DNA from: Owenia fusiformis
Taxonomy: Eukaryota; Annelida; Polychaeta; Sabellida; Oweniidae
Direction of reading: 5' to 3'
NCBI GenBank assembly: GCA_903813345.2
Contig: CAIIXF020000010.1
Coordinates: forward strand, 16,255,181 to 16,319,180
Length of the DNA: 64,000 bases
In this document: piece by piece, positions 18,985 to 60,357 of the stretch
Numbering within the stretch: the stretch's first letter is position 1
How the letters are laid out: every line of letters starts with the position of its first letter
Notes under the pieces: model-generated
Database searches by the model: none
Seen by the model: only the letters and a program-made list of their open reading frames with translations
What the model was told of the DNA's origin: nothing
Position numbers and translations under genes: made by a program

Positions 18985-19068
18985 ATATAAAATCGAAACG
19001 CCAACCTATACGCATGACGAATCGCCTATATAAATACATCGCTTAAATAGTTTCCGTATTTTCCTAAT

Positions 19069-34145: not shown

Positions 34146-34248
34146 ATGGGTTGTGGTGGATCTAAGTCGACAGAGGTGAAGGAGATTAAACAAAATGGAA
34201 ATGTGCAAGAGAGTAAGCAGAAAGAAGAAGCAAAAATATCAAAACAAG
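34146..34248 (+). CDS. Exon 1: acylation-type leader of the GST fusion
   Basis: Encodes 34 residues starting MGCGGSKSTEVKEIKQ and ending just before the first GST module, with a phase-1 donor (CAAG/GTTCGT). Gly2, Ser6 and Lys7 fit the N-myristoyltransferase pattern MGxxxSK, and Cys3 next to Gly2 is a typical palmitoylation position. The rest is rich in Lys, Glu and Gln with no hydrophobic stretch, so it is not a secretory signal peptide. The ATG is chosen because it opens this pattern and joins in frame to exon 2. The acylation itself is inferred. Confidence 0.82.
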
Positions 34249-37200
34249 GTTCGTTTAGTTTTTTGTTTTTGTACATTTGTTTTTGTGTGTTGTATTATTT
34301 AGTACGGCAAGACGTATCTTACCTTAGGTCAAGGTCACAATGAAAGTTCAACTCACCCTGTGTATTGTTGTTTAATAATCCGATTGAGAAGGTGCACTAC
34401 AAGAATAGGATAAATCACTATATAAATATACTAGAACATTTGGGTGTACACCTTTTGGTAATGCCTGTGTCACATTTGCTCCGATTCAGTGTTTTGTTCA
34501 AAATTGTATTCAGTTTGGAACGAAAAACTCAATCGGCCGGGCGCTGGCCGATGAGTCGCAGCAAATGTCCAGGACCAATGGTCGTAGATTTGTGAAAAGT
34601 ATTGAATGTTATCTTGTTGATTTAAAATGTAATCCTTAAATACCTAAAATGATTTTACTTTTCAGATCCTATACCAAAAGGTCCTTATAAACTAACTTAT
34701 TTCGATGGTCAGGGTAGGGCAGAACTGACCCGGGTGATCTTTGCATCACAAGATATTAAGTTCGAAGATATTAGAGTAAATTTCAAAGACTGGCCTGATA
34801 TGAAACCAAGTAAGTTTAAGAAGTAGTTCTGCTATAGACTTGTGTCAAACACACTTTTTCGATATGAAAATAAACTTACTACTGTCATAAAGGAAATATA
34901 TCCAATTTATTTGCTTTATCCAATGCCATTTAGAAACAAATTATTGACATATAGATAGTATTTCATATCCCAATGAAAATTCAGTAATTTTCTTCTTGAT
35001 GAATGCCCATCGGCATTTTTTAAAAGTCTTAAAAGTGGGCACCATTATATAGGATAATCTTGGATATTTAAAACAGTGATAGAATTTAGAAATATATCAT
35101 TCTGTCTAGTATAGTTAGAATTCGCGTAACCAATACACACTATGTATGTTCCGATGGTATGGTTCTTTAAATTCTTACATTTACTCTCTCGTAGCGACCC
35201 CTATGGGAATGTTACCCATATTGGAAGTGGAAGGAACAAAAATATGCGAGAGCCAGACCATTGCACGCACAGCTGCACATATAGCAGGTAAAAATATTCA
35301 TTGCACGCACAGCTGCACATATAGCAGGTAAAAATATTCATTGCACGTACAGCTGCACATATAGCAGGTAAACGTTTTATTCGTAGCATACAGATGTACA
35401 TGTATATATAGCAAGCAAACATCCCATGTTTACGCATAGTACGCACTGCTACACATAACAAGATAATATTTCGTTTTCTAGTCGTTGTATTTACATATGC
35501 ACGTACATGTATAACGATTTTGTTTTCCCCATTGCACCTAATGTTACACATGTAAAAGATAAACATCTCGATGTATAAATTTTATGTTTCGATGAATTAT
35601 ATTTTTGTTTCTTAAACAAGGTATTGCCGGTGAAACCGATCTAGAAAGAGCACAAGCGGATATGATCGTGGATAACTACTCTGACATGCTCAATACCATG
35701 TTAAAATGGATGGTCGCAAAGGATCCCAGTGAAAAGGTGTGTTTGTATTTTGACCCACTGATAAAATCCAATATACGTTTCTTTATGTGGCGTACAACAT
35801 GCGCGTAACTGTATTATTGTAACTCTCTGTATTAGTAAATAGATATAAGACAAAAAACTACTATTTAAAGACATCATGCTCACATTTGAATATTATCTTA
35901 CGAGAATAGAATACTAGTACTATATTGAATTCAAATTTCTTTTGAATGAAATTTGATTGTAATACCTAACTTTTACTGATTTAGGAAGAATGTCAAAAAC
36001 GTGTAAAAGAGACTATCCCTGTGGGTTTAGCAAATATTGAGAAGATCCTGGTGAACAATGGGGGTGTTGGATTCATAGTTGGAAGCAAGGTATGATATGT
36101 GAATTATAAACAGAGATTACCTACTGGAAGGGATTGAATATGGGTTTTATCCCAAGGGACAATACTATATGATATTTCACAGACAGTATGATATTTCAGG
36201 ATTGTCTCTTGGATACTATATATCACATATTCACGTGTAAACATTTAGTGTATTTTTGAATGTTGATTAATTTTAATGGACTTTATGGCTGATATTGTTT
36301 TGATATCAATAGGATGAATATGATATCCCATGGCTTTCTCCATGGGCTTTCAATATTGAATGCCTATGCTTTTTCGAACTATCATTTTATCCACTCGTGG
36401 ATATCTCCCATCTTCATTCGAATTGAATAATATGGATGATTTGATGAGAATATATTTTGGATATTTACTCATTTCACGATTATCAATGTCTTCATATTAA
36501 TTCAGGTGATTACAATTTCAGTTGACATGGGCAGATATCGCATGCATGCTTCTCATGGATGATTGGGTAGCTGGGGGATTTTACACAACGGAATGGCCTA
36601 CGCTCGCCAGACATGCTCAACGCATCCGGGAAATACCAGCCATTGCAAAATGGATACTGGGGCGACCAAAAATGACACCACCAACGACGGGGACACCATC
36701 GCGAGAAGTGACACCTTCACCCGATGTAATACCACCTACAGAAGTGACACAGCAACAAGGTAATCTCGCGAGATCTTAACGCACGTTTGATCACAAATAA
36801 CATGGAGGTGAACGTAACCTTAAAAATGGTCTCTTGTTGATAAATCAAATGTTAGCAGTTTAGTTTTAAAATTCTTTTTTCTGTGTATGAATGAAATGTT
36901 CCTTTACTTGGTGTTATGATCTTGAATGGTGATAATGGAACTTCAATAGTAGGCTAGACATTGTTTCTTTTCACAATGGATTATAGTTTGGGATAGTTGG
37001 TATTGGTATACACTTTTTTTCTTGCTAGGTTCTGTCACAATTTTTGGTCCATATCATTTGGCAGTTGTGCGTACATATTTACTTATATAATTATTGCTCT
37101 AGTATCAATGTAAGTAAAGAAAATACATGGATGACAGACTGATTGATTGTCAGTATGTGTTTTGATATGCCTTGTATTTTATGACAAAACTTATATGTGA

Positions 37201-40200
37201 ATATGCGATATTATTTTAGCTTCTGAATCTGTAACTACGGAAGATATCCCTGAAGGTCCGTATAAACTGACGTACTTCAACCTCCGGGGTAGAGCAGAAT
37301 TGACCCGGATGATCTTTGCCTCCAAGGGTATAGAATACGAGGACATTCGAGTTGAGTTTAAAGATTGGCCTGAAGTGAAACCAAGTAAGAGAGTTAATTA
37401 TATATAACCATTTTAAACGGGATGAACATAAATTGCGCGTTATGTTGAATTAAGATTCAAAACAATGTGTACCATCTTACGTAAAACGGGTTTTTGAACG
37501 ATATAAATCACCTCAGACGCGAGTTCTTCGAACAACCAACGACAACAAACTACCAGGCTCAATTAGTAAAAAACTTGGAAACGGGAACAGTTATTGCTCA
37601 ATGATAACCTTGTGGAACCGTCTTCTAAGAGACCATAAGGAAACGAACAGCTTCTCACTTTTAAAAACAACAACTAAATGATCACCTCACTAAAAACATC
37701 GAACCTACAATTTCAACCTCCTATTTATGCCTTGGTCACATTAGCTCCAATTTTCACTACGGCATCCGGCCGATTGAGTATTTTGTCCAAAATTGAATAC
37801 AATATTGAACAAAACACTCAATCGGCCGGGCGCCGGCCGATGGATCGGGGAAAATGTGACCCAGGCATAACAGCACCTTGATAGAAAAGAAGAAACAGTA
37901 CTAAATAAGATAAGAGTAAATCGATATTTTAAATCCGATCTTTTTTACCATAATTTCTCTTTCATTAACGATCCATATTGTGACTGTGGAGATCGAGAGA
38001 CAGCACAACATGAAGTCTTGTCCTGCCCTCTGAGAGAAACAAAAAATGCGCTAGCGTTGGTTAAACGTAAACTCAACTTAGATGTAACTAAATACAAAAC
38101 ATTAAAAAACAAGACAAATTTCCTACATTTTGGCGACAAGGATCTGACAAATGAAAACAATTTCAAATTTTTTAAGGCAGTTTTAAATTTCATTAAACAC
38201 AATTAATTAAACATATGCGATAACAATAATTCAAATTCAGGGCACTAATGGGGGTATAGAGAGGTAGAAAAACAGAGTGTATTTAAACTTTATTTTTTTA
38301 TACTAACTATGGCTAAATGTAATTATATTGTAATTTAGATTCACTTAAAGCGGCAGAAGAAATGCCCTTTCTGGGGCGATTCTCCGTAATTAAGATGTAA
38401 AATTTATGATTTTTATGAAATAAAGAGTTTTTTTTTTTAATTGAACTTTTCAAGAAAATGATGAATTACTTGTAGAAAACATGTTTATACTTTTGCAACA
38501 AATATACCATTAATTGATTCCTATTTAACTTTTTTGAATAGCAACCCCACGGGGATATTTACCGTTACTTGAAGTCGGGGGCGTCACTATTTGCGAGAGT
38601 CAGACAGTTGCACGCACTGCTGCACATATAGCAGGTAAACATATTTATAATGCTACAGCTGCACATATAACAGGTAAACATATTTATAATGCGCATAGCT
38701 GTACATATAATAGGTAAATATATTGATTTTACTCATAACATACACATCTGCATTCGACACATACATTTATGATAGATTCAGGAGATGGATGTACGAACAA
38801 ATTGTCAATACTTATATACGATTCCACGTTAAAGTTTCCATATCTACATATTCACCCATTTTGCCCATTCGTTTCAGGAATCGCTGGTGAAACAGAACTG
38901 GAAAGAGCGCAAGCGGATATGATCATTGACTGCTACAGTGATATTTTCGACAGTGTTGTAAACGTATTTTTTGAAAAAGATCTAACTACAAGGGTACGTC
39001 TGGATTTTGTGCAATCAGCAACGAAATGTTCTTAAATATATACGTTTTGATTTAAGTGGAGCAACTTCAGAGTATTAATAAAATGGATATCGTAAAAATG
39101 GATATGAAACCTGAAATTAAGTTTTACATGCTTTGTGCCAGGGTCTCAGTGAATTTTCAGGTCACTTTTTGATTGCACTTAATTTTTATACACATTTAGT
39201 TTACATTGATAGGGAGGCAGGCATCGGGTTAAAAAAGCACAATTTCTTTTATTCATAGAAAACATCTACGTCATGTTTTTTATGCGTGTAGCATGTTTGC
39301 TTTTTAGAATGAACTTATAGCAAAACTTAAGACTCAGACACCAGAGGGCCTTAAAAATCTCGAAAAGATCCTCGTGGATAATGATGGAGGCGATGGATTC
39401 ATAGTAGGAAGCAAGGTACAATATTTATTTATGTATTTTTAATAGCATGTTTTGTATCTCAGCTTATATACAATAAAACTCAAAAATTTATCTTTATTAA
39501 GCGAATTAAAAAGTTAACCTTTCAACTTGAGCACTCCTGTGTAAGATGAACACCTCTGTAACGTGAACACCTCGACATATCGCCTTTTGATTCATTCATT
39601 TGGCTTTTAAGTCAGTTCCACCTCTAAAATATGAACACCCCAAAAATTAATTAAAACGTTGCAAATACATTATATACGTACAATACATTACACTATTTGC
39701 CTTTTTATGTATTTTACTTCAGTTGACTTGGGCAGATATAGCATGCATGTTCATATTGGATATCCTCCATAAAATGATGCCGGAAGCTGGTGTTGATTTG
39801 GATATGTCTGCACTATGTCCTCAACTAACGAGTCATTCTGGACGTATATGCGGAATACCCGCCATCGCGAAATGGATAGATGAACGGCCGGCAGAGGAAC
39901 CTCGGAAGTTACCCATCCTACAAGGTAGTTAAATATTTTCATCTAATATTGTCTACTTGACTTATTTGAAATTGAACATTGTAAATGAGATATAGGGTCA
40001 GGGATCTCAGGTGACTCGAATCCATGACCTCTAATACCAACGACATCTTCGACTACCACGACTATGAAGGGTTTAAAATTAGCATTCAATTAAAATAGAT
40101 TTAGTGTCTTGACAAATCATCTCAAATCTAGTGAAGCACCAGAATAATTTAAAAAATATACTCTTACAAAAATTAACTTGTCGTTCTGGACCAATCAACC

Positions 40201-43200
40201 GATAGCAACCCCGGTGGCAACCACTCCAACTCAAATGTCGCAAACATGCATCACAGTGGTACCTTTGCACGCACACGTTTTAGACAATCAACTTCTATTT
40301 CTCCATTTCAGCTCCCATTCCTAAAGGTCCGTATAAACTGACGTACTTCAACCTCCGGGGTAGAGCAGAATTGACCCGGATGATCTTTGCCTCCAAGGGT
40401 ATAGAATACGAGGACATTCGAGTTGAGTTTAAAGATTGGCCTGAAGTGAAACCAAGTAAGAGAGTTAATTATATATAACCATTTTAAACGGGATGAACAT
40501 AAATTGCGCGTTATGTTGAATTAAGATTCAAAACAATGTGTACCATCTTACGTAAAACGGGTTTTTGAACGATATAAATCACCTCAGACGCGAGTTCTTC
40601 GAACAACCAACGACAACAAACTACCAGGCTCAATTAGTAAAAAACTTGGAAACGGGAACAGTTATTGCTCAATGATAACCTTGTGGAACCGTCTTCCAAG
40701 AGACCATAAGGAAACGAACAGCTTCTCACTTTAAAAAAAACAACTAAATGATCACCTCACTAAAAACATCGAACCTACAATTTCAACCTCCTATTTATGC
40801 CTTGGTCACATTAGCTCCAATTTTCACTACGGCATCCGGCCGATTGAGTATTTTGTTCAAAATTGAATACAATATTGAACAAAACACTCAATCGGCCGGG
40901 CGCCGGCCGATGGATCGGGGAAAATGTGACCCAGGCATAACAGCACCTTGATAGAAAAGAAGAAACAGTACTAAATAAGATATACTCAAGGGGCGAGGAG
41001 GGAAATTCTCAATAAATGGTGTATAGTTGGTTTGGCAGTATTTTCAGTTAGGGGAGAGTCTTTGATGAAATTTCCACCTAGGTGATAGCTTCGCAGAGTG
41101 GTAGGAAGTTCTTTTTTTTGAGGAGTTAGTCCCCCACCCCCCAAAAACACCCAACCCTGGGGAAAAAATTGTTCACACTAAATAACCTTAGATATTTTGA
41201 TGTTTGTAAGTGACATACATAGATATTATATATATGAATAATTTGCAGTATTATTGATGCTGATTACTCCTAAGGAATTTGAATATCAGTACAAAGTGTG
41301 TACCCCAGGGGGCAAATTCGTGACTCATTTTCTTACTGTTTTGATTCTAACTTTTCAATTAGACACTGTAAGAGGTTGAAAAAATTCATGTGAAGTGCCT
41401 AATAGCAGGGTTAGTACCCCTGAAAGTTGCAAAGCCATGGAAGAAGTAGGAGCTGAGAAAAAAATTGTTGATTTTTCGAAAAATTTGACATTTTTGACAA
41501 CTGGATTTTGTGTAGGACTATAGCTGACCCCTATAGTTTCTAGATCCATCCCTCTATGATGATATTTATGGTTTCATAGTGTGGAATAAAGATGTAAAAC
41601 ATAATTTAGATGGGTTTTAAGGAAGTTAAAGGTTTTAAACAAGTCCAAAATTTGAAAAATTGTAAATATAAGGTTTCAAATTTACGAATTCCAGGTATAG
41701 CCATGGCTGACCCCTATAGTTTCTAGATCCATCCATCTTTGATGATATTTATGCTTTCATAGTGTGAAACTAAGATGTAAAACATAAATTAGATGGGTTT
41801 TAAGGAAGTTATAGGTTTTAAACAAGTCCAAAATTCGAAAAATTGTAAATGTAAGGTTTCAAATTTACGAATTCCAGCTATAGCCATGGCTGACCCCTAT
41901 AGTTTCTAGATCCATCCCTCTTTGATGATATTTATGGTTTTGTAGTATGGAACTAAAGATGTAAAACATAATTTAGATGGGTTTTAAGGAAGTTAATGAT
42001 TTAAAACAAGTCCAAACTTTGAAAAATTGTAAATATAAGGTTTCAAATTTACGAATTTTAGGTATAGCCATGGATGACCCTTATGGCTTTTTCATCAATA
42101 CTTCTATGATGAAACATATACTTTTAGAGTGTGAGACTAAGATGTAAAACATACTGAAGATGAATTTAAAGGAAGTTTAAGAATTTTAACAAGTGCAATA
42201 TTTGAAAAATTGAGAAATATCAGGTCTCAAAGGAGCACGGAAAGTATCGCAACAGATTTCAGACAGTCATATGTTGGATTTTGTCTGTTTTCTGAGGATT
42301 TAAGCAGGTGCATATGATAGGCCATTGCATTACCTACGGGAAAAGAACTCTTAGAGATGATAAAATAGTTTGGAATTTGAGACAGCGAAGGTGAAAACAA
42401 TCCACCCACATGTTTTTTGGGAAATGTCCTGATTTTCAACCCCGTTCACCCCTGGTTTTTCAATTTTTGTTGCATCAATATGTTGCGTTTTGAGACATAG
42501 TTAACCATTAAAAGGATAAATTTCTTTTAGATAAAGCGGAAAACAATATTTTCCTGTTATTTTCCCATAGGGAAAACTCATGTGATCCATTGCTTTCAGC
42601 TTAATTTTGGTCACCCATATTTGATATCTTTAAAATCTCTGATGGAATGTATTTTTCATTTAAAGGGGTTAACTGTATGTAAAAACACATATATTTATAC
42701 ATATACACATATATATTTATGCATGTGGGTGGGTTGTTTGCACCTTCTCTGTCTCAAAATAGAAATTATTTTATCATCTCTATGGGTGCTTTTCCTGGAG
42801 GAAATGCATTGGCCTAACATATGCACCTCCTCAAATCCTCAGAAAATAGCCAAAATCCAACATATGATTGCTGAAATCTGTTGCGATACTTTCAGTCCTC
42901 CTTTACGATTTCAGGTATAGCCCTGGATGTCCCTCTTTTTGAATGTATGACTTAGCTTAGAAATTAGATGTTGAAAATATTGTGGTCAGGTTTGATCTAT
43001 GTTACATGTATTGTTACATGTGAATCCCCCAGTAAGTGTAACTGCTCCTAGGGATATCGTATACAGTGTAGTAATTGATTGATTAAATGGATTATAACTA
43101 ATTGATTATTATTTGATGATATTTATTATGTGATATAGCATTTTTACTTTTTCAGATCAACATGTTCAATGTAATGTTCTGCATTATCAAAATACATAAA

Positions 43201-46200
43201 GACATGGTTAATTAAAAGAAACATGTTTTCTCTATATTTTGTTATGCCCATACTGTAATTAAGCAATGATCATCTCCTAATACAAAATGTTGTTATGAAT
43301 TATCAAATTATAATCACTACACTCCCAATAAAAAAATTTGTCATCAGGCAACAGTAATTATTTGGGAAAATAAGGATTATGAGGATCATACCCCCCCCCC
43401 CGGGCCTAGAAACTTCCGTTAGTGCAATGATATAAGGAACTCTAAAGGTAAAAGGGTCTTGTCACATTAAAATCTTCATGTAGATCAAAAAAGTATATAC
43501 ATGTATGGTGAAATGATCAATATGTTTCAAACAAACAGACATTGTAGAAAATGTTTACATACTGACTGATAGTCACAAAATTATAATATCAGTGTCATTT
43601 GATGCAAATTACTGCAGTCCCACATGTTCTGCTGAATGTAAAACAGAGTGAATAATTTTAAAATCAGCCTCTTCAGGAGTGGAATTTAACAGGAGATTTC
43701 AGTTATCATTTTCACAGATATTTGAGTTCTCTCCAATAGTTCCACTTAAAACAATCTTGACATTTGGCACACTTTTAGAATGCTGCTTTATTGAATTTCT
43801 TTGTAATCTTTGAAAGTTGGTCTTATATTACTTGGACAAAGGTATTCATATTTTTAGGTAATGGTGTAATTTCTTCTATGGATTAAAGTTCAATAGGGGA
43901 AGCATCCATTCTTCGCATTCTTTCAGAATCCTTTACTGATGGAGACAACTAGCTAGGAGTCTAATATGAAATCTATTCTTTGGGCTCCTTTACTAGATTT
44001 GATGGAGTAGTCAAATATAGCTTTCCAAAACTTTCCAAATTTCAACATATAAGTTAATCTTCATTTTCCCTTTGTCATAGCCATTGCATCAATCATGAAA
44101 CTTTTATCAATTTGTGGTATGGTTTCATCGATCTCCATTTGAAACCCCTTTTTAAGTTCTGATTTTACAGGATAAGATAGATGATCATTGTCAAATGAAC
44201 TGTTTGTATCCATATAAGATCATAGTTTACTCACACATTTCTAGGCAAGGTGTGTCCAATTCCAGCCAATTCAATATTCCATATAACTGCATTCAAATTT
44301 ACTACTCTCATAAACCCAAGGTCAATTTTAGATTCTAGAGAAATTAATGAAACTAATGATCATAGGGAATAGCATGCCAAGTGCTTGTATTTGAATTTAT
44401 GTGGATTACTCATTTGGTAGACACCTTTATCAAATGTTAAAGTGTTGTTGATTTTCAAGTTGTACAAGCACAGTGTCATGGGTGCTTTCTTTTCCTGACA
44501 TAGTATAACATTGTGGTAAAAATTATCAAATGCACCTAGTACAGTAGTTCTAGTTCATCATCTTGTATAAATGATATATCAGCAGTGAAACCTGTATATC
44601 CCAACATCTGACTATTGTGAACACATACCAATCATCCCAACACCTGACTTATCTGAAAACCAACCAATCTGAACACTTTTCTCCAGTTCAATTTTTCCTT
44701 CCTCCCATTGACTCCTATGTTTAAAAATTGAAATCTGAACACCTCTTAATTTGAACAGTGAACACTCATATTTGAAAAATCAACCTGTTTAACTTGAACT
44801 TTTTTTTACCAAATATCACATATTTCTTACAAAATTGCTAAAATATTGTCAGTTTAACACTGAATTGTTATGATATCAAAACTTTTGAATTGGATTTTGG
44901 AATGCTATTAAGCTTTTTGGATGGTCAGTATAAATATTATTAATATTTATTAATATTTTTCATTGAGAATGCATTCATATTTCTTCAAAATCCAGAATAT
45001 TGCAGATGTAAAAACCTCAAAATTCAAACACTTCTAATTTGAACGCTTTTAGCTGGTCCAAATACTATATCTAGTAGCATTCAGATTAGAAAGATTTTAC
45101 TGTAGTTCATGACTTTTCACTCCATCTATATGCAGCAGACTAACTGCTGCAACAGGTATATATTCTACACCTGGTCTCTAAGCCATGATATCACAGTTGT
45201 TACCATTATGCTCATAACCTTCAATTATCAGGGCTCATTCAAGGCTGTACCTGAATAACGTGAATTTGAGACCAATTTTCGGGATCAATTTTTCTTGCAC
45301 TTGTTTAAAACCTTGAACTTCCTTCAAACTCATCCTATGCATCTTTTACATTTTAGTAAAATACTCTAAAAATATATATCTCATCACTGAGGTATAGATG
45401 TAAAAAAACATAAGGGTCATCTTTGGCTATACCTGAAATTCATAAATTTGAAAACATACATTTACAATTCTTCAAATTTTTGACTTGTTTAAAACCTTAA
45501 ACTTTCTTAAAATTCATTTTGGGTATGTTAAATCTTAGTCCCACACTCTAAAACTGTATATTTAATCATAGAGGTATGGATGTAAAAACCATAAGGGTCA
45601 GCCATGGCTATACCTGAAATTCGTAAATTTAAAACCTTATATTTACAATTTTTCAAATTTTGAACTTGTTTAAAACCTTAAACTTCCTTAAAACCCATCT
45701 AAATTGTGTTTTACATATTAGTTCCATACAGCAATACCATAAGTATCACCATAGAGGGATGGATCTAGAAACTATAGGGGTCTGCCATGGCTCTACCTGG
45801 AATTCGTAAATTTGAAACCTTATATTTACAATTTTTCAAATTTTGGACTTGCTTAAAACCTTAAACTTCCTTAAAACCCATCTTAATTATGTTTTACATC
45901 TTAGTTCCACACTATAAAACCATATATATCATCATAGAGGGATGGATCCAGGAACTATAGGGGTCAGCTATAGTCATACACAAAATCCAGCTGTCAAAAA
46001 TGTCAATTTTTTCGAAAAATCAACAATTTTTTTCTCAGCTCCTACCTCTTCCATGGCTTTGCATCTTTCAGGGTTACTAACCCTGCTATTGGGCACTTCA
46101 CATGAATTTTTTCAACCTCTTACAGTGTCTAGTTGAAAAGTTAGAATCAAAATAGTAAGAAAATGGGTCACAAATTTGCCCTCTGGGGTACACACTTTGT

Positions 46201-49200
46201 ACTAATATTCAATTTTTTTAGGAGTAATCAGCATCAATTATACTGCAAATGATTCATATATATAATATCTATGTATGTCACTTACAAACATCAAAATATC
46301 TAAGGTTATTAAGTGTGAACAATTTTTTTCCCCGGGGTGGGGTGTTTTTGTGGGGTAGGGGGCTAACTCTTCAAAAAAAGAACTTCCTACCACTCTGTGA
46401 AGCTATCACCTAGGTGGAAATTTCATCCAAGACTCTTCCCCAACTGAAAATTCTGCCAAACCAACTATACTCCATTTATTGAGAATTTCCCTCCTCGCCC
46501 CTAGAGTAATAAGAGTAAATCGATATTTTAAATCCGATTTTTTTTTACCATAATTTCTCTTTCATTAACGATCCATATTGTGACTGTGGAGATCGAGAGA
46601 CAGCACAACATGAAGTCTTGTCCTGCCCTCTGAGAGAAACAAAAAATGCGCTAGCGTTGGTTAAACGTAAACTCAACTTAGATGTAACTAAATACAAAAC
46701 ATTAAAAAACAAGACAAATTTCCTACATTTTGGCGACAAGGATCTGACAAATGAAAACAATTTCAAATTTTTTAAGGCAGTTTTAAATTTCATTAAACAC
46801 AATTAATTAAACATGCATGCGATAACAATAATTCAAATTCAGGGCACTAATGGGGGTATAGAGAGGTAGAAAAACAGAGTGTATTTAAACTTTATTTTTT
46901 ATACTAACTATGGCTAAATGTAATTATATTGTAATTTAGATTCACTTAAAGCGGCAGAAGAAATGCCCTTTCTGGGCGATTCTCCGTAATTAAGATGTAA
47001 AATTTATGATTTTTATGAAATAAAGAGTTTTTTTTTAATTGAACTTTTCAAGAAAATGATGAATTACTTGTAGAAAACATGTTTATACTTTTGCAACAAA
47101 TATACCATTAATTGATTCCTATTTAACTTTTTTGAATAGCAACCCCACGAGGATATTTACCGTTGCTTGAAGCGGAAGGCGTCACTATTTGCGAGAGTCA
47201 GACAATTGCACGCACTGCTGCACACATAGCAGGTAAACATATTTATAATGCGCACAGCTGCACATATAACAAGTAAACGTATTTATAATGCTACAGCTGC
47301 ACAAATAACAAGTAAACATATTTATAATGCTACAGCTGCAAATATAACAGGTAAACATATTTATAATGCTACAGCTGCACATATAACAGGTAAACATATT
47401 TATAATGCGCACAGCTGTCCATATAACAGGTAAACATATTTATAATGCTACAGCTGCACATATAACAGGTAAACATATATATAATGCGCACAGCTGTCCA
47501 TATAACAGGTAAATATGTCGATTTTACTCTTAACATACACATCTGGATTCTACACATACATTTATGGTAGATTCAGTAGATGGATGTACTAACAAATTGT
47601 CAATACTTATATACGACTCCACGTCGTCATATTTATAATGCTACAGCTGCACATATAACAGGTAAACATATTTATAATGCGCACAGCTGTACATATAATA
47701 GGTAAATATATTGATTTTACTCATAACATACACATCTGCATTCGACACATACATTTATGATAGATTCAGGAGATGGATGTACGAACAAATTGTCAATACT
47801 TATATACGATTCCACGTTAAAGTTTCCATATCTACAGTATTCACCCATTTTGCCCATTCGTTTCAGGAATTGCTGGTGAAACAGAACTGGAAAGAGCGCA
47901 AGCAGATATGATCATTGACTGCTACACTGATATTTTCGACAGTGTTGTAAACGTATTTTTTGAAAAAGATCTAACTACAAGGGTACGTCTGGATTTTGTG
48001 CAATCAGCAACGAAATGTTCTTAAATATATACGTTTTGATTTAAGTGGAGCAACTTCAGAGTATTAATAAAATGGATATCGTAAAAATGGATATGAAACC
48101 TGAAATTAAGTTTTACATGCTTTGTGCCAGGGTCTCAGTGAATTTTCAGGTCACTTTTTAATTGCACTTAATTTTTATACACATTTAGTTTACATTGATA
48201 GGGAGGCAGGCATCGGGTTAAAAAGCACAATTTCTTTTATTCATAGAAAACATCTACGTCATGTTCTTGATGCGTGTAGCATGTTTGCTTTTTAGAATGA
48301 ACTTATAGCAAAACTTAAGACTCAGACACCAGAGGGCCTTAAAAATCTCGAAAAGATCCTCGTGGATAATGATGGAGGCGATGGATTCATAGTAGGAAGC
48401 AAGGTACAATATTTATTTATGTATTTTTAATAGCATGTTTTGTATCTCAGCTTATATACAATAAAACTCAAAAATTTATCTTTATTAAGCGAATTAAAAA
48501 GTTAACCTTTCAACTTGAGCACTCCTGTGTAAGATGAACACCTCTGTAACGTGAACACCTCGACATATCGCCTTTTGATTCATTCATTTGGCTTTTAAGT
48601 CAATTCCACCTCTAAAATATGAACACCCCAAAAATTAATTAAACCGTTGCAAATACATTATATACGTACAATACATTACACTATTTGCCTTTTTATGTAT
48701 TTTACTTCAGTTGACTTGGGCAGATATAGCATGCATGTTCATATTGGATATCCTCCATAAAATGATGCCGGAAGCCGGTGTTGATTTGGATATGTCTGCA
48801 CTATGTCCTCAACTAATGAGTCATTCTGGACGTATATGTGGAATACCCGCCATCGCGAAATGGATAGATGAACGACCGGCAGAGGAACCTCGGAAGTTAC
48901 CCATCCTACAAGGTAGTTAAATATTTTCATCTAATATTGTCTACTTGACTTATTTGAAATTGAACATTGTAAATGAGATATAGGGTCAGGGATCTCAGGT
49001 GACTCGAATCCATGACCTCTTATACCAACGACATCTTCGACGCTTCCTGGTCAACTCAACCCCAAGTCAACTCAACCCAAGTCAACTCAACCCTTAGTCA
49101 AGTCGACTCCAAGTCAATTCGACCCTTAGTCAAGTCGACCCTAAGTCATCTCGACCCTTAGTCAACTCGACCCCAAGTCATCTCAACCCTTGGTCAACTC

Positions 49201-52200
49201 AACCCTTAGTCGAGTCGACCCAAATGATTTTACTTGTTTTAAGTAGATTAAAATACAATATAATCCAATTGTTTGTGCAGTTTGATTTGAAATCAAACTT
49301 CAAAGAAAAAAAACATTTCTGTCACCTATACGATCAAAACGAAGATTTAAACTGGATCATAAAATCCCAATCTGTTTGTTTATGACACCTGACATATGAG
49401 TAAGATAATGGAAAATAGAAAAACATAAATCCCATTGTTTGTTCAGTCTTGTTTTAAAATCTTACTTCAAAAAAATAAACATTTCTATCGCCTGTAGATC
49501 AGAAGGAAGATTTGAACCGGATCATATTGTTTATTATTATTATCAAAATATAAAATCATTCAATACAAAGTAATGGATGGATGTTGGCACAATGCACATG
49601 TTGCATAAGTTACCTGTTGTCAAAAATACTGTTGCAACAATTTCGGTATAACAGAAAAGTGTATAGATAATTTTTTTATTTCAGAGAGATTAAACAAGCT
49701 CAAATATTAAGGGGTGAAATATATGTATAGCATCGTGAATAGTCCTATTAAGATTAATCAAATATTATTTTGTTATTTATAAAAATTAAAAATGCGTTAA
49801 GCACAAACTTCAATAGTTGATAATTTTATTTTGGAAAATTAGCATTTTAGTCCCTCATTCTTTCAAAATTCATCAATATCATACCATGAAAATAGTATAT
49901 CTATTTGTTTTTTATGGTGGGGTCGAGTTGACTAAGGGTTGAGATGACCAAGGGTTGAGATGACTTGGGGTCGAGTTGACTAAGGGTCGAGATGACTTGG
50001 GGTCCACTTGACTAAGGGTCGACTTGACTTGGGGTCGACTTGACTAAGGGTTGAGTTGACTTGGGGTTGAGTTGAGCAGTTAAATCTTCGACTACCACGA
50101 CTATGAAGGGTTTTAAATTAGCATTCAATTAAAATAGATTTAGTGTCTTGACAAATCATCTCAAATCTAGTGAAGCACCAGAATAATTTAAAAAATATAC
50201 TCTTACAAAAATTAACTTGTCGTTCTGGACCAATCAACCGATAGCAACCCCGGTGGCAACCACTCCAACTCAAATGTCGCAAACATGCATCACAGTGGTA
50301 CCTTTGCACGCACACGTTTTACACAATCAACTTCTATTTCTCCATTTCAGCTCCCATTCCTAAAGGTCCGTATAAACTGACCTACTTTGATATCCGAGGA
50401 AGAGCAGAATTGACCCGGATGATCTTTGCCTCCAAGGATATTGAATTCGAAGACATCCGAGTTGACTTTAAAGATTGGCCTGATATGAAACCAAGTAAGG
50501 ACCTCAGAACGCAGTTGAAATCACTTTCTATAATTTACTTATAGTCATGTTACGGTAAAAACTGTTACAATATCATCTCAAAAATGGTTAATTGGTTCTG
50601 TTACAATTATTTGTTATAAAAACACACAAATTTTTCTATAGCCCTTAAACTTTTAAGTACAAGACTCACTAGTTACATCCATACTCACAAGTTACATACA
50701 TTTTCTTTTCAGCAACGCCTAATGGAGTGTTACCGTTATTGGAAGTGGAAGGTGCAACTATATGCGAGAGCCAGACCATTGCACGCACAGCTGCACATAT
50801 AGCAGGTAAACATATTTTTGCAAACACAGTAGCAGGTAAGCATATTTATTGCACGCAATTTGCATGTATAGTATCTAAACATATTTATTACACGCACAGC
50901 TGCACGTGTAGTAGCTAAACATATTTATTACACGCATAGCTACACGTATAGTAGCTAAACATATTTATTGCACGCACAGTTGTCCACTCGTTTAGCAGAT
51001 GAAAATCTCTTATGTACTCGTTGATCGTACAACTGCCCATATAGCAAGTAAACGTGTTGTACACATCCTATTTTATTAACATAGGTATAAGATAAACCTT
51101 AAAATAATTGCTCCACAAATGTACCATGTTTTATTCGCACTACATTGTACATTCGTTAGGTATCGCCGGTACAACAGAAGAGGAAAGGGGTCAAGCAGAT
51201 ATGTGTGTGGACTGTTACTGTGATGCAATAAACCATGCTGCTAATTGGTTGAAAAATAAAGACGACGAGGAAAAGGTTAGAAAAAAATTCCTTAAAATAA
51301 TTCATTTTTCAGTACTCTACGCACAGAGTCTAGTAGCGAAGTCAACGATTGAGGGCATTTTTCAGTAAATACCCCAAAGAAAACATTCGATAATGAGTTA
51401 GTTTACAATTAACTTTTCAGCACTTGCTTGTACTTTACTTACTTATAAGTATTTTTCTGAATCTAAAATTCAATTCAATAATAATATAAAATAAAATAGA
51501 TCTACGATATAGATATAACCGTAAAAGGTGTTGTCCAATGTCATTCCTATTTTGGCTATCATAAGTTTCAAAATGTAAAATTTACTGTGTTTATTTTTAT
51601 TACAGGGGCCTGAACTATTAAAAAATCTAACAGAGACACAACTTCCCACTGGTTTAGAGAACCTCCAAAAGATTTTAGTTGCGAATGGAGGCGATGGATT
51701 CATAGTTGGCAACGAGGTAATACACTTCTTCTTGAGATACATTGCCCAGAGACATTTAACATCCCGACCCCCCCCCCCCATCCCCACCCCCTTTAGATCA
51801 TATTTTTTCTATTTGTGTTTGGAGCTGATTTTTCTCTCAAATACAACATTGCAAGGTCCATAATGTATGACCAAAGAATCTTTAAAATCGCCAAACATAA
51901 GCAAACTTTTATACGTGATCCAAATGGGAGTTTGAATGCCAAATATTGAGAGGGGAGTGTACATTATTTGAATATCATGGTTGTTTTGGTTAGGTTGATG
52001 TTTAACATAATTGTTTTGGTTTGGTTGATGTTTAACATAGTTGTTTTGGTTTGGTTGATGTTTAATGTTTTGGTTTGGTTGATGTTTAACATGGTTGTTT
52101 TGGTTTGGTTGATGTTTAACATAATTGTTTTGGTTTGGTTGATGTTTAACATAGTTGTTTTGGTTTGGTTGATGTTTAATGTTTTGGTTTGGTTGATGTT

Positions 52201-52590
52201 TAACATGGTTGTTTTGGTTTGGTTGATGTTTAACATGGTTGTTTTGGTTTGGTTGATGTTGAACCTTCATGCTAATGTCCTTGTCAGATTTAATGAGAGA
52301 TCATCCATTGCATTGTTTAATCATATCAGTTATCATAGATGGACACACTTACTAGTTACCACATTTGACAAACTAATCCTTTATTTTATCTATTTTAGCT
52401 AACGTGGGCAGATCTTGCGTGTTTGACGCTAATGGAAGAAATACCAAGTATGTTGAAGAGAGGCGGTGTCTCTGATGCTTTTGATTGTGAAAAGTACACT
52501 GAACTGTCAACTCATGCTGAACGTATCCGGGAAATCCCAGCTATATCCAATTGGATACAGAAACGACCGCAATCTGCCAGACCAGCATAA
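34146..52590 (+). CDS. Four-module sigma-class GST fusion with N-myristoylation leader (21 exons)
   Basis: Joined exons: 34146-34248, 34666-34809, 35195-35287, 35621-35736, 35985-36089, 36522-36759, 37220-37384, 38542-38634, 38878-38993, 39308-39415, 39723-39924, 40312-40455, 47140-47232, 47867-47982, 48296-48403, 48711-48912, 50351-50494, 50713-50805, 51160-51275, 51606-51716, 52399-52590. Every junction is AG/GT, phases agree throughout, and the total is 2802 nt (933 residues plus TAA). Residues 1-34 are a charged leader beginning MGCGGSK. Modules lie near 40-236, 279-486, 500-707 and 721-933. Each has an N-terminal thioredoxin-like half (LTYF, GRAELTR, DWP, cis-Pro LP) and a helical C-terminal half with an LTWAD N-capping motif. 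Candidate catalytic tyrosines are 46, 285, 506 and 727. Sigma GSTs conjugate or isomerise substrates with glutathione and are normally about 200-residue dimers, so four in one chain is unusual. The leader suggests membrane anchoring (inference). A 5' non-coding exon may lie upstream. Confidence 0.9.
34462..34575. mobile_element. Small hairpin element in intron 1
   Basis: Contains TGCCTGTGTCACATTTGCTC, then ACTCAATCGGCCGGGCGC. Same family as the elements in introns 7 and 12, but more diverged. Confidence 0.6.
34666..36759 (+). CDS. GST module 1 (exons 2-6) with Pro/Thr-rich linker
   Basis: Exons 34666-34809, 35195-35287, 35621-35736, 35985-36089 and 36522-36759. Residues 35-82 give the first beta-alpha-beta part (LTYFDGQGRAELTR, DWPDMKP). 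Residues 83-113 give the cis-Pro segment (GMLPILEVEG) and the helix-3 segment (ESQTIARTAA). Residues 114-266 give the helical domain, including LTWADIAC. Compared with modules 2-4, the segment after LTWADIAC is shorter, so the helix 6-7 loop is reduced. The last exon continues past GRPK into about 27 residues of Pro/Thr-rich linker (TPPTTGTPSREVTPSPDV...), not present between the other modules. It is the most diverged module but keeps the candidate catalytic Tyr46. Confidence 0.88.
35261..35370 (+). repeat. Exon-end/splice-donor minisatellite after exon 3
   Basis: Exact 40-bp units at 35261-35300 and 35301-35340, and a third partial unit from 35341. Each unit copies the last 27 bases of exon 3 plus its donor (ATAGCAGGTAAA). 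Donors at 35287, 35327 and 35367. Using the second or third would add 40 or 80 nt and shift the frame. Confidence 0.9.
37220..39924 (+). CDS. GST module 2 (exons 7-11)
   Basis: Exons 37220-37384, 38542-38634, 38878-38993, 39308-39415 and 39723-39924. Starts with a unique 12-residue lead-in (ASESVTTEDIPE), then GPYKLTYFNLRGRAELTRMIF with candidate catalytic Tyr285. The cis-Pro segment is GYLPLLEVGG, helix 3 begins ESQTVARTAA, and the C-terminal half includes ERAQADM and LTWADIACMF. It ends in a short linker (AEEPRKLPILQ). Apart from the lead-in it differs from module 3 at about five residues, and the introns are also near-identical. Intron 7 carries a LINE remnant split by a small hairpin element. 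Confidence 0.9.
37480..37725 (+). pseudogene. LINE reverse-transcriptase remnant, part 1 (intron 7)
   Basis: Encodes RYKSPQTRVLRTTNDNKLPG, then MITLWNRLLRDHKETNSFSL, typical of the segment after the reverse transcriptase domain of non-LTR elements. Broken by a frameshift and by the hairpin element that follows. Confidence 0.65.
37727..37870. mobile_element. Small hairpin element in intron 7
   Basis: Inverted ends of the pattern GCCTTGGTCACATTAGCTCC / GGGGAAAATGTGACCCAGGC, with an inner palindrome around CGGCCGATTGAGT and ACTCAATCGGCCG. It splits the LINE remnant. Confidence 0.7.
37871..38440 (+). pseudogene. LINE remnant, part 2, with C-terminal zinc knuckle
   Basis: From about 37887 reads EETVLNKIRVNRYFKSDLFY, then NDPYCDCGDRETAQHEVLSC. 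The C-x-C-x7-H-x4-C pattern is the usual C-terminal knuckle of several non-LTR clades. Open to a stop at about 38206, followed by a 3' region ending in AATAAAGAG and a T run. Clade not assigned. Confidence 0.7.
38604..38725 (+). repeat. Splice-donor minisatellite after exon 8
   Basis: About three units of 37-39 bp, each with GCTGCACATATA.CAGGTAAAC-like sequence. The true donor is after 38634 and decoys follow near 38672 and 38712. Confidence 0.85.
40312..48912 (+). CDS. GST module 3 (exons 12-16), recent duplicate of module 2
   Basis: Exons 40312-40455, 47140-47232, 47867-47982, 48296-48403 and 48711-48912. The lead-in is APIPK, as in module 4, and the rest copies module 2 (candidate catalytic Tyr506). 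Differences from module 2 seen by eye: Val-Gly to Ala-Glu in the LPLLE segment, Val to Ile before ART, Ser to Thr in CYSDI, and Thr to Met after CPQL. Intron 12 is about 6.7 kb because a 5.5-kb foldback element landed in it. Splice sites and frame are intact, so the module looks functional. Confidence 0.9.
40540..40980. pseudogene. Duplicated LINE remnant and hairpin element in intron 12
   Basis: Copy of 37469-37910 with a handful of substitutions, including the hairpin element (about 40797-40940). The rest of the LINE continues at 46509 after a foldback insertion. Confidence 0.75.
40983..46508. mobile_element. 5.5-kb foldback element with internal ~180-bp repeats, TSD ATA
   Basis: Ends TACTCAAGGGGCGAGGAGGG and complement TACTCTAGGGGCGAGGAGGG. 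TSD ATA at 40980-40982 and 46509-46511. The empty site AATAAGATAAGAG is in intron 7 near 37905. Arms are about 1.25 kb (40983-42240 and 45245-46508). Each ends inward in about four tandem units of about 180 bases containing CCCCTATAGTTTCTAGATCC. The 3-kb centre shows no transposase. Homologous short ORFs occur in both arms (minus 41355-41549, plus 45942-46136). Confidence 0.88.
46509..47050 (+). pseudogene. LINE remnant continuing after the foldback (intron 12)
   Basis: Copy of 37906-38450, with the same knuckle, stop and T run. Short indels only. Confidence 0.75.
47203..47705 (+). repeat. Expanded splice-donor minisatellite after exon 13
   Basis: About eight units of 37-39 bp from 47203 to 47515 and two more at about 47627-47705, separated by a partial copy of the following intron. 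Each unit has the GCTGCACATATAACAGGTAA pattern. Module 2 has only about three units, so this array grew after the duplication. Confidence 0.88.
49042..50083. mobile_element. 1.04-kb element with terminal 16-bp repeat arrays, TSD ATCTTCGAC
   Basis: TSD of nine bases at 49033-49041 and 50084-50092. The empty site is in intron 11 near 40041. Both ends are arrays of GTCAACTCGACCCTTA-like units, about 49050-49215 forward and 49918-50076 inverted. The centre is AT-rich without an ORF. Confidence 0.85.
50351..52590 (+). CDS. GST module 4 (exons 17-21) and C-terminus
   Basis: Exons 50351-50494, 50713-50805, 51160-51275, 51606-51716 and 52399-52590. Begins APIPKGPYKLTYFDIRGRAEL with candidate catalytic Tyr727, then GVLPLLEVEG and ESQTIARTAA. 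The helical half has EERGQADMCVDCYCD, DGFIVGNE and LTWADLACLTLMEE, and ends WIQKRPQSARPA followed by TAA. It is clearly related to but distinct from modules 2/3, and its last exon is closer to ordinary sigma GST length than that of module 1. Confidence 0.9.
50780..50985 (+). repeat. Degenerate splice-donor minisatellite after exon 18
   Basis: Five or six units of 30-40 bp derived from GCACGCACAGCTGCACATAT plus AGCAGGTAAACATATTTATT. Several decoy donors are mutated to AGCTAAACA or ATCTAAACA. Confidence 0.8.
51975..52262. repeat. 30-bp minisatellite in intron 20
   Basis: Units of GTTTTGGTTTGGTTGATGTT plus TAACATGGTT or TAACATAATT, with 18-bp short variants, about ten in all. It is open on both strands because the unit lengths are multiples of three. 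It ends about 140 bases before exon 21. Confidence 0.9.
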
Positions 52591-55890: not shown

Positions 55891-56362
55891 AAGGTATGAG
55901 TACCGTAATCCAACACCAAATTCGAAAATTCATAACAATACTTTGCACATATGGCGTTCGTGACCAACTATAAAACGCTTACCCCCCATAGTGTTATATA
56001 TCAAAATGTACCTGTTCATATAGGGGTTCGATTGATCTACATCAAATTATAGGGAGTCAGGTTACTTTTTGAGATATCAGCGTTCATTTATTGTGACTCG
56101 CGTTTGCTACCACTTCCTCAATTCTCATATGATGGGCAAACGCGTAGTAAACATGCTCACGTCGGAACTATTTTTGACCTACATCGCTATTTCGTAATTC
56201 AAATGAAAGTTGAACTCCTCCTCTTTATTTTGATACCAAATAGTGGCATACTAGGTACCCTAGAAGCCAACTATGGCGTTATTTAGAACAATACCACGAG
56301 TTTTTAAATGGACTATATAGGGGTCATACCTTTTGGCGGATGGATATGGAACCTCATACCTC
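55891..56362. mobile_element. 470-bp repeat element, copy 1
   Basis: Begins AAGGTATGAGTACCGTAATC and ends GGAACCTCATACCTC, giving imperfect short inverted ends. Abuts copy 2 head to tail. Confidence 0.75.
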
Positions 56363-56837
56363 AAGGTATGAGTACCGTAATCCAACACCAAATTCGAAAA
56401 TTCATAACAATACTTTGCACATATGGCGTTCGTGACCAACTATAAAACGCTTACCCCCCATAGTGTTATATATCAAAATGTACCTGTTCATATAGGGGTT
56501 CGATTGATCTACATCAAATTATAGGGAGTCGGGTTACTTTTTGAGATATCAGCGTCCATTTATTGTGACTCGCGTTTGCTACCACTTCCTCAATTCTGAT
56601 ATGATGGGCAAACGCGTAATAAACATGCTCACGTCGGAACTATTTTTGACCTACATCGCTATTTTCGTAATTCAAATGAAAGTTGAACTCCTCCTCTTTA
56701 TTTTGATACCAAATAGTGGCATACTAGGTACCCTAGAAGCCAACTATGGCGTTATTTAGAACAAAACCACAAGTTTTTAAATGGACTATATAGGGGTCAT
56801 ACCTTTTGGCGGATGGATATGGAACCTCATACCTTAA
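56363..56837. mobile_element. 470-bp repeat element, copy 2
   Basis: Nearly identical to copy 1. It contains a 72-codon ORF shared with copy 3 but shortened in copy 1, with no recognisable motif. Confidence 0.75.
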
Positions 56838-57622
56838 TGTGTTATGACATCACACTGATTTTTGTCTCTGCAACTTTTTTTGGCAGAAAATATCATTTCT
56901 AGTTCAAAAATGCATAAAAACGTCGGAACTGGCTGAATATGTGAAAAATTTATCCATTTAGGCTAGAAAGGGTTAATTTGCCCTACCCCAAATACGTCTA
57001 AATATGCTGGTCTAACTTTGCCACTGTGACGTCACAAATCTAACCTGATTATCTCTGAGTTTATTGAAGAAAATGATACGTCTGACAAACAGCTTTCATT
57101 CCCTATATGGCACACCTTCTACTAAGAGTTGCATCATTGACTAAATCTAAGACAAAGGGCCTGTGTCCCGAGGATTTTGACTGAAATTTGGCCATTTTCG
57201 CCCAAATCTAACTAAATTGCAGTTTCCCTCACACCTGTATTTTGAAATAAATATTGCTACAATGTAGCAATTTGAAAATCACACATGCTTACTGTTTCTG
57301 TCGACCTGACACGTGTATCTAGCCTGTAAAAATGAAAAATCGCTACATTGTAGCAATTTCACTGAGATATGGGCCCTGAAAATCATGTAATTTTAGCAAA
57401 AAATGAAGAAATAACCTGCAATTTTGACGGAATTTCAGAGGGCTTTCTTTCATTCCAGACCCTCCACGGGCCTCTTATGACCATTCTTATACTCACAGAA
57501 TGGTTGAAAGTGATTTCAAATCATTGTTTGCCCTACGCAGAACGAAAAAATCGATTCTGTTCTCAAAATCTGCTAGAATATTGGTCTCTGGCCAACTAGC
57601 AGACAATTTTAGGCCTCATATT

Positions 57623-58097
57623 AAGGTATGAGTACCGTAATCCAACACCAAATTCGAAAATTCATAACAATACTTTGCACATATGGCGTTCGTGACCAAC
57701 TATAAAACGCTTACCCCCCATAGTGTTATATATCAAAATGTACCTGTTCATATAGGGGTTCGATTGATCTACATCAAATTATAGGGAGTCAGGTTACTTT
57801 TTGAGATATCAGCGTCCATTTATTGTGACTCGCGTTTGCTACCACTTCCTCAATTCTGATATGATGGGCAAACGCGTAATAAACATGCTCACGTCGGAAC
57901 TATTTTTGACCTACATCGCTATTTTCGTAATTCAAATGAAAGTTGAACCCCTCCTCTTTATTTTGATACCAAATAGTGGCATACTAGGTACCCTAGAAGC
58001 CAACTATGGCGTTATTTAGAACAAAACCACAAGTTTTTAAATGGACTATATAGGGGTCATACCTTTTGGCGGATGGATATGGAACCTCATACCTCAA
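57623..58097. mobile_element. 470-bp repeat element, copy 3
   Basis: Nearly identical to copy 2, separated from it by about 785 bases of unrelated sequence. Confidence 0.75.
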
Positions 58098-60357
58098 TAT
58101 TGATTCTCGTCTACCGAGAGCTTACACGAGAGCAGGATTTAGAATGCGCGAATTGACTGCGCAATAGTCATTGAAGGACTACCTTAAACCCCAAGAGGGG
58201 GAGAAACCCCAGGGTTCAAAGATGACATACGCTTATAATGTAAATCTGTATTGAGATGACATCGTCGCTGATTAGTTTAGCGAGTCGATCGTTGATTGGT
58301 TTAAAACTAGGTCAATTTGAAAACTTTGAAAACCAAGATGGAGGGTAAGTAAAAAGTTATGTACAAGAAAGAATGGGTTTATATCTGTATTTTGATATCA
58401 AATTTGAGGACATATGTGGTATATGTTGGAAGTTATATTGCAAAAGTAAGGTCACCCCAAAAGTGGGCGGGGCAAAAAATTGAAATTTTAAATATTTTTT
58501 TCTTCAACAATATGCAAGTTGAGAAGTCGGTATTCCATATGTGTATTACCTGTATATAGAAGTATTACCATGAATTTTTCCATGGCTCTTAGATAAAGCA
58601 ATTAAGAAATATATACATTATCATAAAATATTTTGGCCATATGACAACATATTTTGGTGTATTTGGGAGGTAAAATGTCAATTGTTGGCACAAAAAAAGC
58701 ATTAAAAGTAGATTTAAATCCACTCTGAATCTTTCCCATGAACTAATACAACATTAAAACATGTAAAAACTATTCAAATATGGAGAAATTATTTTTTCAC
58801 TTACCCCTAGTCAAAATTGGGGTGGGGGTACCTAAGAAGTGAAATTTCATATTTGTCCACTACATATATTTTCCTATATTTTTGATATGTTGCTACATAT
58901 ATATCAATTCACCAATTAAACCATGTTTCAAAACTATTGCAATTTGTCAGATGTGAAATCACCAATTGACTGGCTTAATAGTCCCTGATCTGATTTTCCT
59001 AAGAGCTCTAGATAGGAGTTTGTTGTCCGGAAGCCTTGTTCATAAAGCCAGCGTAGGACTAAACGTCAACGTATCGTATTGCGGAAACTTATTTTTGGTA
59101 TTCATAAGGCAAACGTAACTTTACGATGAAAGTCCTGCGGATCTTACAAACTATTTACGTCAAGTATTTTCACCGTGTAACTTTACCACTGTGACCAAGT
59201 GTTAATAGTGGAGATTGTCCCGGACTTGTTTTTTCAAACGATTTAGACGGGTTTTTCGAAAACTTGAGAGGTAGGTTGATAAAGGTCCATGTGCAGTATC
59301 AAGACAACTTAAACATAAAAATGGACCGCGTGGAGTTTTCAACTTAAAAGTATTTCCATACAATCCCCCTCCCCTTCAGTGCAGGAGAAACGTTCATATG
59401 ATTAAGATTGGAAAAACGAGATATTTTTTAAATGAGAAAAATATTTTGGAAAAACTGAAGAGATGGGTTACTAAACCAATATCTATCGGTTTAATCCAAA
59501 TGCCATTTTTATTAGTTGAAAAAAAAACATATATTGTTCTATGTAAAACGAAGGAAGTGTGATCTACAATACTCCTTGTCAAAAATAAACTCCAAATTGT
59601 TCACGAAACAATACGTGGTCCTTAATTATTTAGTATTAATTTTCTGACATTCAGAGACAACTGAATAAATGTTTCTGGTCAAGTTTGCTTAAGAAATGCT
59701 ACAGCGGAGCTTTCTTTAATACTAAACGTGTATGCTAGAATTATACATCCAGCCCATAGATTTGATGTGCTTCACCAGTTCACACAGATTCTACGTTCAC
59801 GTTTTCCCGTACAATAGTCACTGCGGCAGCATTATGTACAAATATGAAAAAACGAACTTCACAACAAAAATGTATTTGTGTAGGATAAGTAACTAATGGT
59901 CTCGAATAACGTATTTTAGCCTAACGTCTTACAATGTATGAATCTACGTATCATTTACGGCACTGACGGATAGCGCTTTGCGAAACCTCTGTTCTGTAGT
60001 TTTTTTTGATTTATTCTTAAATGTCCCAATTGTTTTACACGCAGATCATTTTCTAGCTGTTCGAAGCCTGTTTCTGTCACATACAGATTATCTCAAATCA
60101 GACGCGTGGTAAGGCCCTAGATGACTTGCGACGTTTGGGTAGGTGTTAGACATCCGCTCGGCACCTGTAAACATGAGAACAACTAATTCGTCAACTATGT
60201 TTAATCTATTATGGCATTGAGATGGCTAACCTTGTGAGTTAATGAATCGTGGATCACAAAGATTGGAGGCTGTGCAAGCTCTTCTTAAAAATTAAAGGGG
60301 ACATTAAAATACCCCAAGCACAATTATTCTCGGATTCAACGATGTGTATTATCCTAC
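58098..60357. other. Spacer; may hide 3' exons of the minus-strand gene
   Basis: 58098-58190 resembles 55383-55455 (GCGCGAA..ACTGCGCAATAGTC). No splice-framed exon in phase with 60509-60358 could be identified. Confidence 0.4.

Follow-up and report, generated by a model that had tools for sequence, protein, structure and literature searches.

Four fused sigma-class glutathione S-transferase modules predicted in one Owenia fusiformis gene, with a candidate acylated leader and a recently duplicated third module

Does a tandem run of glutathione S-transferase (GST) exons in the annelid Owenia fusiformis encode one protein or four? The run lies in the window, by which we mean the whole stretch of 64,000 nt that was analysed (C10:16255181-16319180); the genome searched comprises 498,259,871 bases in 525 contigs. 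Three above-cut-off matches to the erythrocruorin linker C-terminal family, which is not known outside annelids, point to an annelid source; a search for mollusc haemocyanin returned no match, a negative without evidential weight. Our preferred reading, to which we give a probability of about 0.62, is that the locus specifies a single chain of ~104 kDa, in which an acylated leader precedes four sigma-class GST modules, and that this membrane-held chain grew by duplication of an exon cassette.

As the first-pass annotation had claimed, 21 exons on the + strand (34146-52590) join in one frame of 2802 nt to give 933 codons with a single terminal stop. All 20 introns are GT-AG, and incoming exon phases of 1,1,1,0,0 recur in every module, the joint before each a exon being phase 1. 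The predicted product consists of a 34-residue leader (MGCGGSK...) and four complete GST modules of sigma type, each spread over five exons. Exon 1 (34146-34248, +), which ends in phase 1, would encode the leader, MGCGGSKSTEVKEIKQNGNVQESKQKEEAKISKQ; it was recognised by its frame, GT donor, motif, composition and ATG context. Frame and Pfam stretches delimit module 1 (34666-36759, +; exons 1a 34666-34809, 1b 35195-35287, 1c 35621-35736, 1d 35985-36089 and 1e 36522-36759), module 2 (37220-39924, +; 2a 37220-37384, 2b 38542-38634, 2c 38878-38993, 2d 39308-39415 and 2e 39723-39924) and module 4 (50351-52590, +; 4a 50351-50494, 4b 50713-50805, 4c 51160-51275, 4d 51606-51716 and 4e 52399-52590, the last with the only stop of the gene, a TAA). 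Module 3 (40312-48912, +; 3a 40312-40455, 3b 47140-47232, 3c 47867-47982, 3d 48296-48403 and 3e 48711-48912) was placed by frame and by comparison with modules 2 and 4. With lengths of 696, 684 and 663 nt, each divisible by 3, modules 1, 2 and 3 are whole cassettes. Linkers of 44, 18 and 18 residues join modules 1-2, 2-3 and 3-4, the long one being carried by exon 1e. This first linker (36672-36759) abounds in Pro, Thr and Ser and includes several Ser/Thr-Pro pairs; the other two differ.

In one Pfam scan, the 933-residue product gave four GST_N stretches (PF02798; whole-protein E 1.7e-36) and four GST_C_3 stretches (PF14497; whole-protein E 1.1e-63), and all nine families at E <= 0.1 were GST families. 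Both domains and an N-terminal catalytic Tyr, the marks of the sigma class, are present in all four modules, as are the LTYF and LTWAD motifs that had been reported earlier. Module 4, the one module searched against solved structures, matched haematopoietic prostaglandin D synthases (HPGDS; sigma class) most closely (E 5e-34), and its top matches were HPGDS and other sigma GSTs; among the best 60 of 115 solved chains, each matched over one stretch only. When the window was searched by tblastn for further GST pieces, none of the 88 hits fell outside 34.0-52.7 kb. A GST_N profile search of the whole genome (E <= 0.001) returned eight places, none within the window, because the domain is split there between exons a and b. 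Six other open reading frames of the window had no Pfam match above cut-off; scores for zf-UBR and Sec20 were weak and below it.

The fusion is well supported by more than the open frame, namely by start and stop signals that single-module genes of this genome carry and the window modules lack. Genome searches with modules 1 and 2 produced 47 and 46 scored matches, with 14 exon-a matches outside the window; the starts and last exons of all 14 relatives were read, and their single-module status is judged from these two ends of each gene. In 14/14 exon-a relatives an in-frame Met precedes the first aromatic residue of the motif (Y/F) by 3-6 residues, and a stop follows 3-4 residues past the closing RP in 14/14 last exons. 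Within the window, each a exon is preceded by an AG acceptor and by no Met (0/4; Fisher versus relatives 3e-4), while exons 1e, 2e and 3e reach a GT donor with the frame still open, so that only one of four modules, through 4e, has a stop. Separate starts and ends for each module, which the first-pass annotation had itself named as the opposing case, are disfavoured by the Met missing from 4/4 modules and the stop missing from 3/4. Its claim of four full sigma-like modules in one chain is well supported by the frame, the Pfam stretches, the HPGDS matches and this contrast with the relatives. As a separate observation, a single-module GST gene on C6 (about C6:40240599-40240931) has the start of its last exon tandemly repeated, in 72-bp steps, ahead of the true last exon.

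The introns between modules were searched for signals of independent transcripts. Candidate ATG exons in phase 1 with a donor score >= 1.6 numbered 0, 0 and 1 in introns 1e-2a, 2e-3a and 3e-4a, and the sole candidate sits within an inserted inverted-repeat element. At a laxer donor threshold of -0.4 the counts rise to 1, 1 and 2, and these cannot be dismissed, since the true-looking donors 2d and 3d score -0.32 and this threshold is needed to admit both. Translation continued through the donors of 1e, 2e and 3e terminates after at most 7, 2 and 2 residues, so that early-ending transcripts would give tidy proteins. Polyadenylation hexamers number 0, 1 and 5 in intermodule introns of 460, 387 and 1438 bp, compared with 2.5 per kb window-wide; they are not in surplus, with the third intron at most slightly enriched.

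Whether the chain begins with an acylated leader depends on exon 1. Its ATG lies in favourable surroundings (A at -3, G at +4) and is preceded by an in-frame stop with no Met between, and its frame occurs once in the genome. Against a pool of 977 chance ATG-to-donor frames taken from the window and fetched loci, exon 1 itself included, an MG...[ST] start occurs in 8/977, and one that also has Cys at position 3 or 4 in 2/977. Only 3 of 458 frames of at least 20 residues contain no F, L, W or Y; exon 1 is among them, and a second belongs to the true reading frame of exon 1e. The donor of exon 1 is weak: a generic donor matrix gives it 1.67, and 2.01 marks the 95th percentile for every GT across the window. 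The frame starts with the Met-Gly that N-myristoylation calls for, and Ser at position 6 is favoured for this modification. According to passages in PMC7373427 and PMC4200515, an N-terminal Gly is needed for myristoylation but is not predictive of it. The myristoylation/palmitoylation-type start proposed earlier therefore stands in part: exon 1 carries the motif and resembles coding sequence but has a weak donor. We infer that the leader, if exon 1 is used, fits a dual-acylation site.

Modules 1, 2 and 4 are old and have been maintained as proteins under purifying selection. They share 60-65% protein identity with one another, dN/dS (NG86) among them ranges from 0.16 to 0.32 where dS is 1 or more, and blastn matches among them are mainly exonic, apart from exon b flanks and one intronic repeat. 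Because dN/dS between such old modules is low and the matches fall mainly on exons, the array is not a product of chance. In a tree with genome relatives, the four window modules form one clade (support 99/99), with single-module genes on C9 and C6 (one and two, respectively) placed as sisters at 85/92, below the star level of the tool. Of the 14 relatives, 10 entered the tree (C5_2, C12_2 and the C4 and C1 pair left out), and its entries C9b, C12_1, C3, C11 and C4 each lacked one or two exons.

Module 3 was copied recently from module 2 and is still nearly identical to it, which the first-pass annotation had missed. Their introns show 13 differences in 2145 compared bases (0.6%), a count that excludes intron b-c, both insertions and 25 gap columns, and linkers 2-3 and 3-4 are identical (18/18 residues). 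Exon 3a and the intron preceding it match 4a up to a block of ~19 bp common to 2a and 4a, and beyond the block match 2a. Since exon 3a is thus a hybrid of 4a and 2a, the present four-module gene probably arose from a three-module one by an unequal crossover in which exons 2a and 4a recombined. Two insertions are private to the newer copy. A foldback-like inverted-repeat element of ~5.5 kb (40983-46508; 974-nt arms, 90% complementary; placed by its junctions) lies in the first intron of module 3 and is missing from module 2. An inverted-repeat element of ~1 kb (49047-50079; 146-nt arms, 95% complementary; likewise placed by its junctions) lies between modules 3 and 4, is flanked by a 9-bp direct repeat and is missing from the copy between modules 2 and 3. 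The introns hold further repeats. An open frame in intron a of modules 2 (37871-38203) and 3 (46519-46803) contains a CDCGDRETAQHEVLSCP stretch, reminiscent of a retrotransposon end, with a sub-threshold Pfam match. An 88-bp repeat with a AATCGGCCGGGCGC core occurs at 34481-34568, 37770-37857 and 40840-40927, in introns of modules 1, 2 and 3, the later copies being 82-83% alike to the first.

Exon b departs from this pattern. Between exons 2b and 3b, 8 of 93 positions differ, compared with 0.6% in the introns (Fisher 9e-7), and exons 1b and 4b agree at 25/30 third positions, compared with 80/175 in the other exons of that pair (1e-4). Exon b ends with their donors are tandemly repeated in the following intron in 4/4 modules, as ~40-bp repeats at 35259-35372, 38613-38724, 47217-47513 and 50830-50979 (modules 1 to 4). 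In module 1, the unit copies the exon b end with its donor, and splicing from one of the later copies would lengthen the exon by 40 or 80 bp, with loss of frame. The anomaly is perhaps due to gene conversion in the region of exon b, with selection on module 3 as the alternative reading. The C-domain exons have diverged very rapidly. Immediately before exon 4e lies another tandem repeat, of 30 bp in ~10 copies (51976-52264). Elsewhere in the window, 55891-58100 holds three near-identical copies (97-100%) of 300- and 178-bp stretches at spacings of about 472 and 1260 bp, and nearly the same open frame appears in three copies and both orientations (17356-17730, +; 18615-19025, -; 26898-27278, +), probably a mobile element.

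Compared with human HPGDS, all four modules keep Tyr8, Arg14, Trp39, Lys43, Pro52, Ser64, Asp93 and Asp97. Gln63 is replaced by Glu in 4/4, so the sigma-class Gln-Ser pair reads Glu-Ser; Lys50 and Asp96 are likewise lost in 4/4 (the Asp96 position holding S, S, T and C). Module 1 has Gln for Arg12, and modules 2 and 3 have Val for Trp104. A passage in PMC4976375 holds the Gln, for S-crystallin, to be essential for glutathione binding and catalysis. Glu at this position is shared by 3/3 nearest single-module relatives, and the change therefore predates the fusion; as the site varies among sigma genes of the genome, Glu-Ser lowers the claim to catalysis rather than to class membership. With Tyr8 kept and the Gln replaced throughout, catalysis by the modules is plausible, not certain. 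We take Asp93, Asp96 and Asp97 to be the metal site of prostaglandin D synthase; Asp96 being replaced in every module, synthesis of PGD2 is not supported. Glutathione-dependent handling of hydrophobic compounds at a membrane would in our view be the most likely role.

Taken as a single gene, the locus would produce one ~104-kDa chain with a short hydrophilic leader and four sigma-class modules on linkers. Gly2 would probably carry myristate and Cys3 palmitate, and these lipids would tether the modules to the inner side of a membrane. Each module may bind glutathione and handle lipid-derived or other electrophilic or hydrophobic compounds, and each would pair with another of the same or a neighbouring chain. 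Growth probably proceeded by internal duplication of the phase-1/phase-1 five-exon cassette, the latest step, from three modules to four, being the putative unequal crossover inside exon a. Pairing within one chain is possible; even-numbered internal pairing, however, was probably not the old design of the gene. A pre-assembled double dimer, as envisaged in the first-pass annotation, is unlikely to have been the original arrangement, because the step from three modules to four was probably very recent, and in a three-module ancestor one module would have been left without a partner in its own chain.

Several other explanations have to be weighed against the single chain. Four adjacent single-module genes with independent starts and ends would have precedent here, since tandem single-module sigma genes occur in this genome (three starts and three ends on C5, for example); yet with Met absent from all four modules and present in every relative, three modules open into a donor, and polyadenylation hexamers in little or no excess, we regard this arrangement as highly improbable. 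It is also very unlikely that module 3 is an assembly artefact, the other haplotype inserted in tandem. The intron difference of 13/2145 does lie within a two-haplotype range, but the junction falls, as recombination predicts, in the ~19-bp block, which is too short for the usual assembly overlap, both insertions are private to module 3, and a 602-base stretch of module 2 has no further copy outside the window.

Other readings accept the fusion and differ in what is made from it. The true first coding exon might lie elsewhere, leaving the four modules without an acylated leader: nine candidates with a donor >= 1.6 occur within 10 kb upstream, one beginning MGCLTLF, and two short frames <= 3 kb upstream of exon 1 have better donors than its weak one. 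Exon 1 is nonetheless the nearest candidate, 417 bp from 1a, and has the coding-like composition, the ATG context and the acylation motif, which makes a different first exon rather improbable. We think it similarly improbable that the protein is a non-catalytic, structural or ligand-holding one in the manner of S-crystallin. The Glu at a position described as essential (in the passage of PMC4976375 cited above) and the rapid C-domain divergence would fit such a role, but Tyr8 and Arg14 are kept in all modules, the alignment with HPGDS shows no long insertion after the fourth helix, and the nearest single-module relatives share the Glu. Less readily set aside, though still unlikely, is a fused array that mostly yields shorter proteins of one to four modules by splicing. 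The phase at the end of exon 1 recurs at the end of all e exons, which lets exon 1 be spliced to any a exon and lets modules be skipped; all eight combinations of modules 1-3 ahead of module 4 stay in frame (252 to 933 aa). Such compatibility is, however, expected from internal duplication anyway. More tentatively, the locus could be a membrane-anchored array whose module number is still changing, the four-module allele being so young that three-module ones may persist in the population, with exon b shared between modules by conversion, diverging substrate-binding C domains and products of one to four modules, a composite that we consider doubtful. The single acylated chain remains the reading we prefer.

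If made, this chain departs from the sigma-GST plan of one module per chain and two chains per dimer, provides a natural linked GST array on a membrane, and records a datable gain of a whole enzyme module through one crossover inside a coding exon. Pairing of GST modules within one chain also becomes testable, because the older form had an odd module number. Multi-module sigma GSTs may well exist in annotated proteomes. An exact-phrase search of open-access papers found none on a sigma-class GST with myristoylation, although such a search cannot show absence of description. A candidate precedent for several modules, the phrase "two GST domains" in PMC11313178, was set aside, since in the passage concerned it means something else.

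The closest known relatives of the array are the single-module genes on C9 and C6, nearest both by tree and by the Glu in exon b; unlike the array, they have their own Met in exon a, their own stop and no leader exon. BAALC begins with a similar MGCGGS dual-acylation start but has no GST module, whereas the Pfam scan of the array (E <= 0.1) gives GST families only. Drosophila GSTS1 (PDB 1m0u) is, like the array, a sigma GST with an added N-terminal stretch. Parts of PMC2999413 link the insect sigma GST with such an extension to flight muscle structure; it has one module, and in the Hessian fly the extension is described there as hydrophobic/acidic, not of acylation type. Cephalopod S-crystallins differ from the array in being separate single-module genes for lens proteins, which have a long alpha4-alpha5 loop; the HPGDS alignment shows no long insertion in the array. 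They share with it descent from sigma GSTs and multiplication of genes, as a passage in PMC4976375 relates. Sigma GSTs and HPGDS of known structure (PDB 3ee2 and others) have the fold families, the catalytic Tyr and most glutathione-site residues in common with the array and differ from it at Gln63, Lys50 and Asp96, changed in all four modules; they are single-module dimers of ~200 residues, whereas the predicted chain described here would carry four modules.
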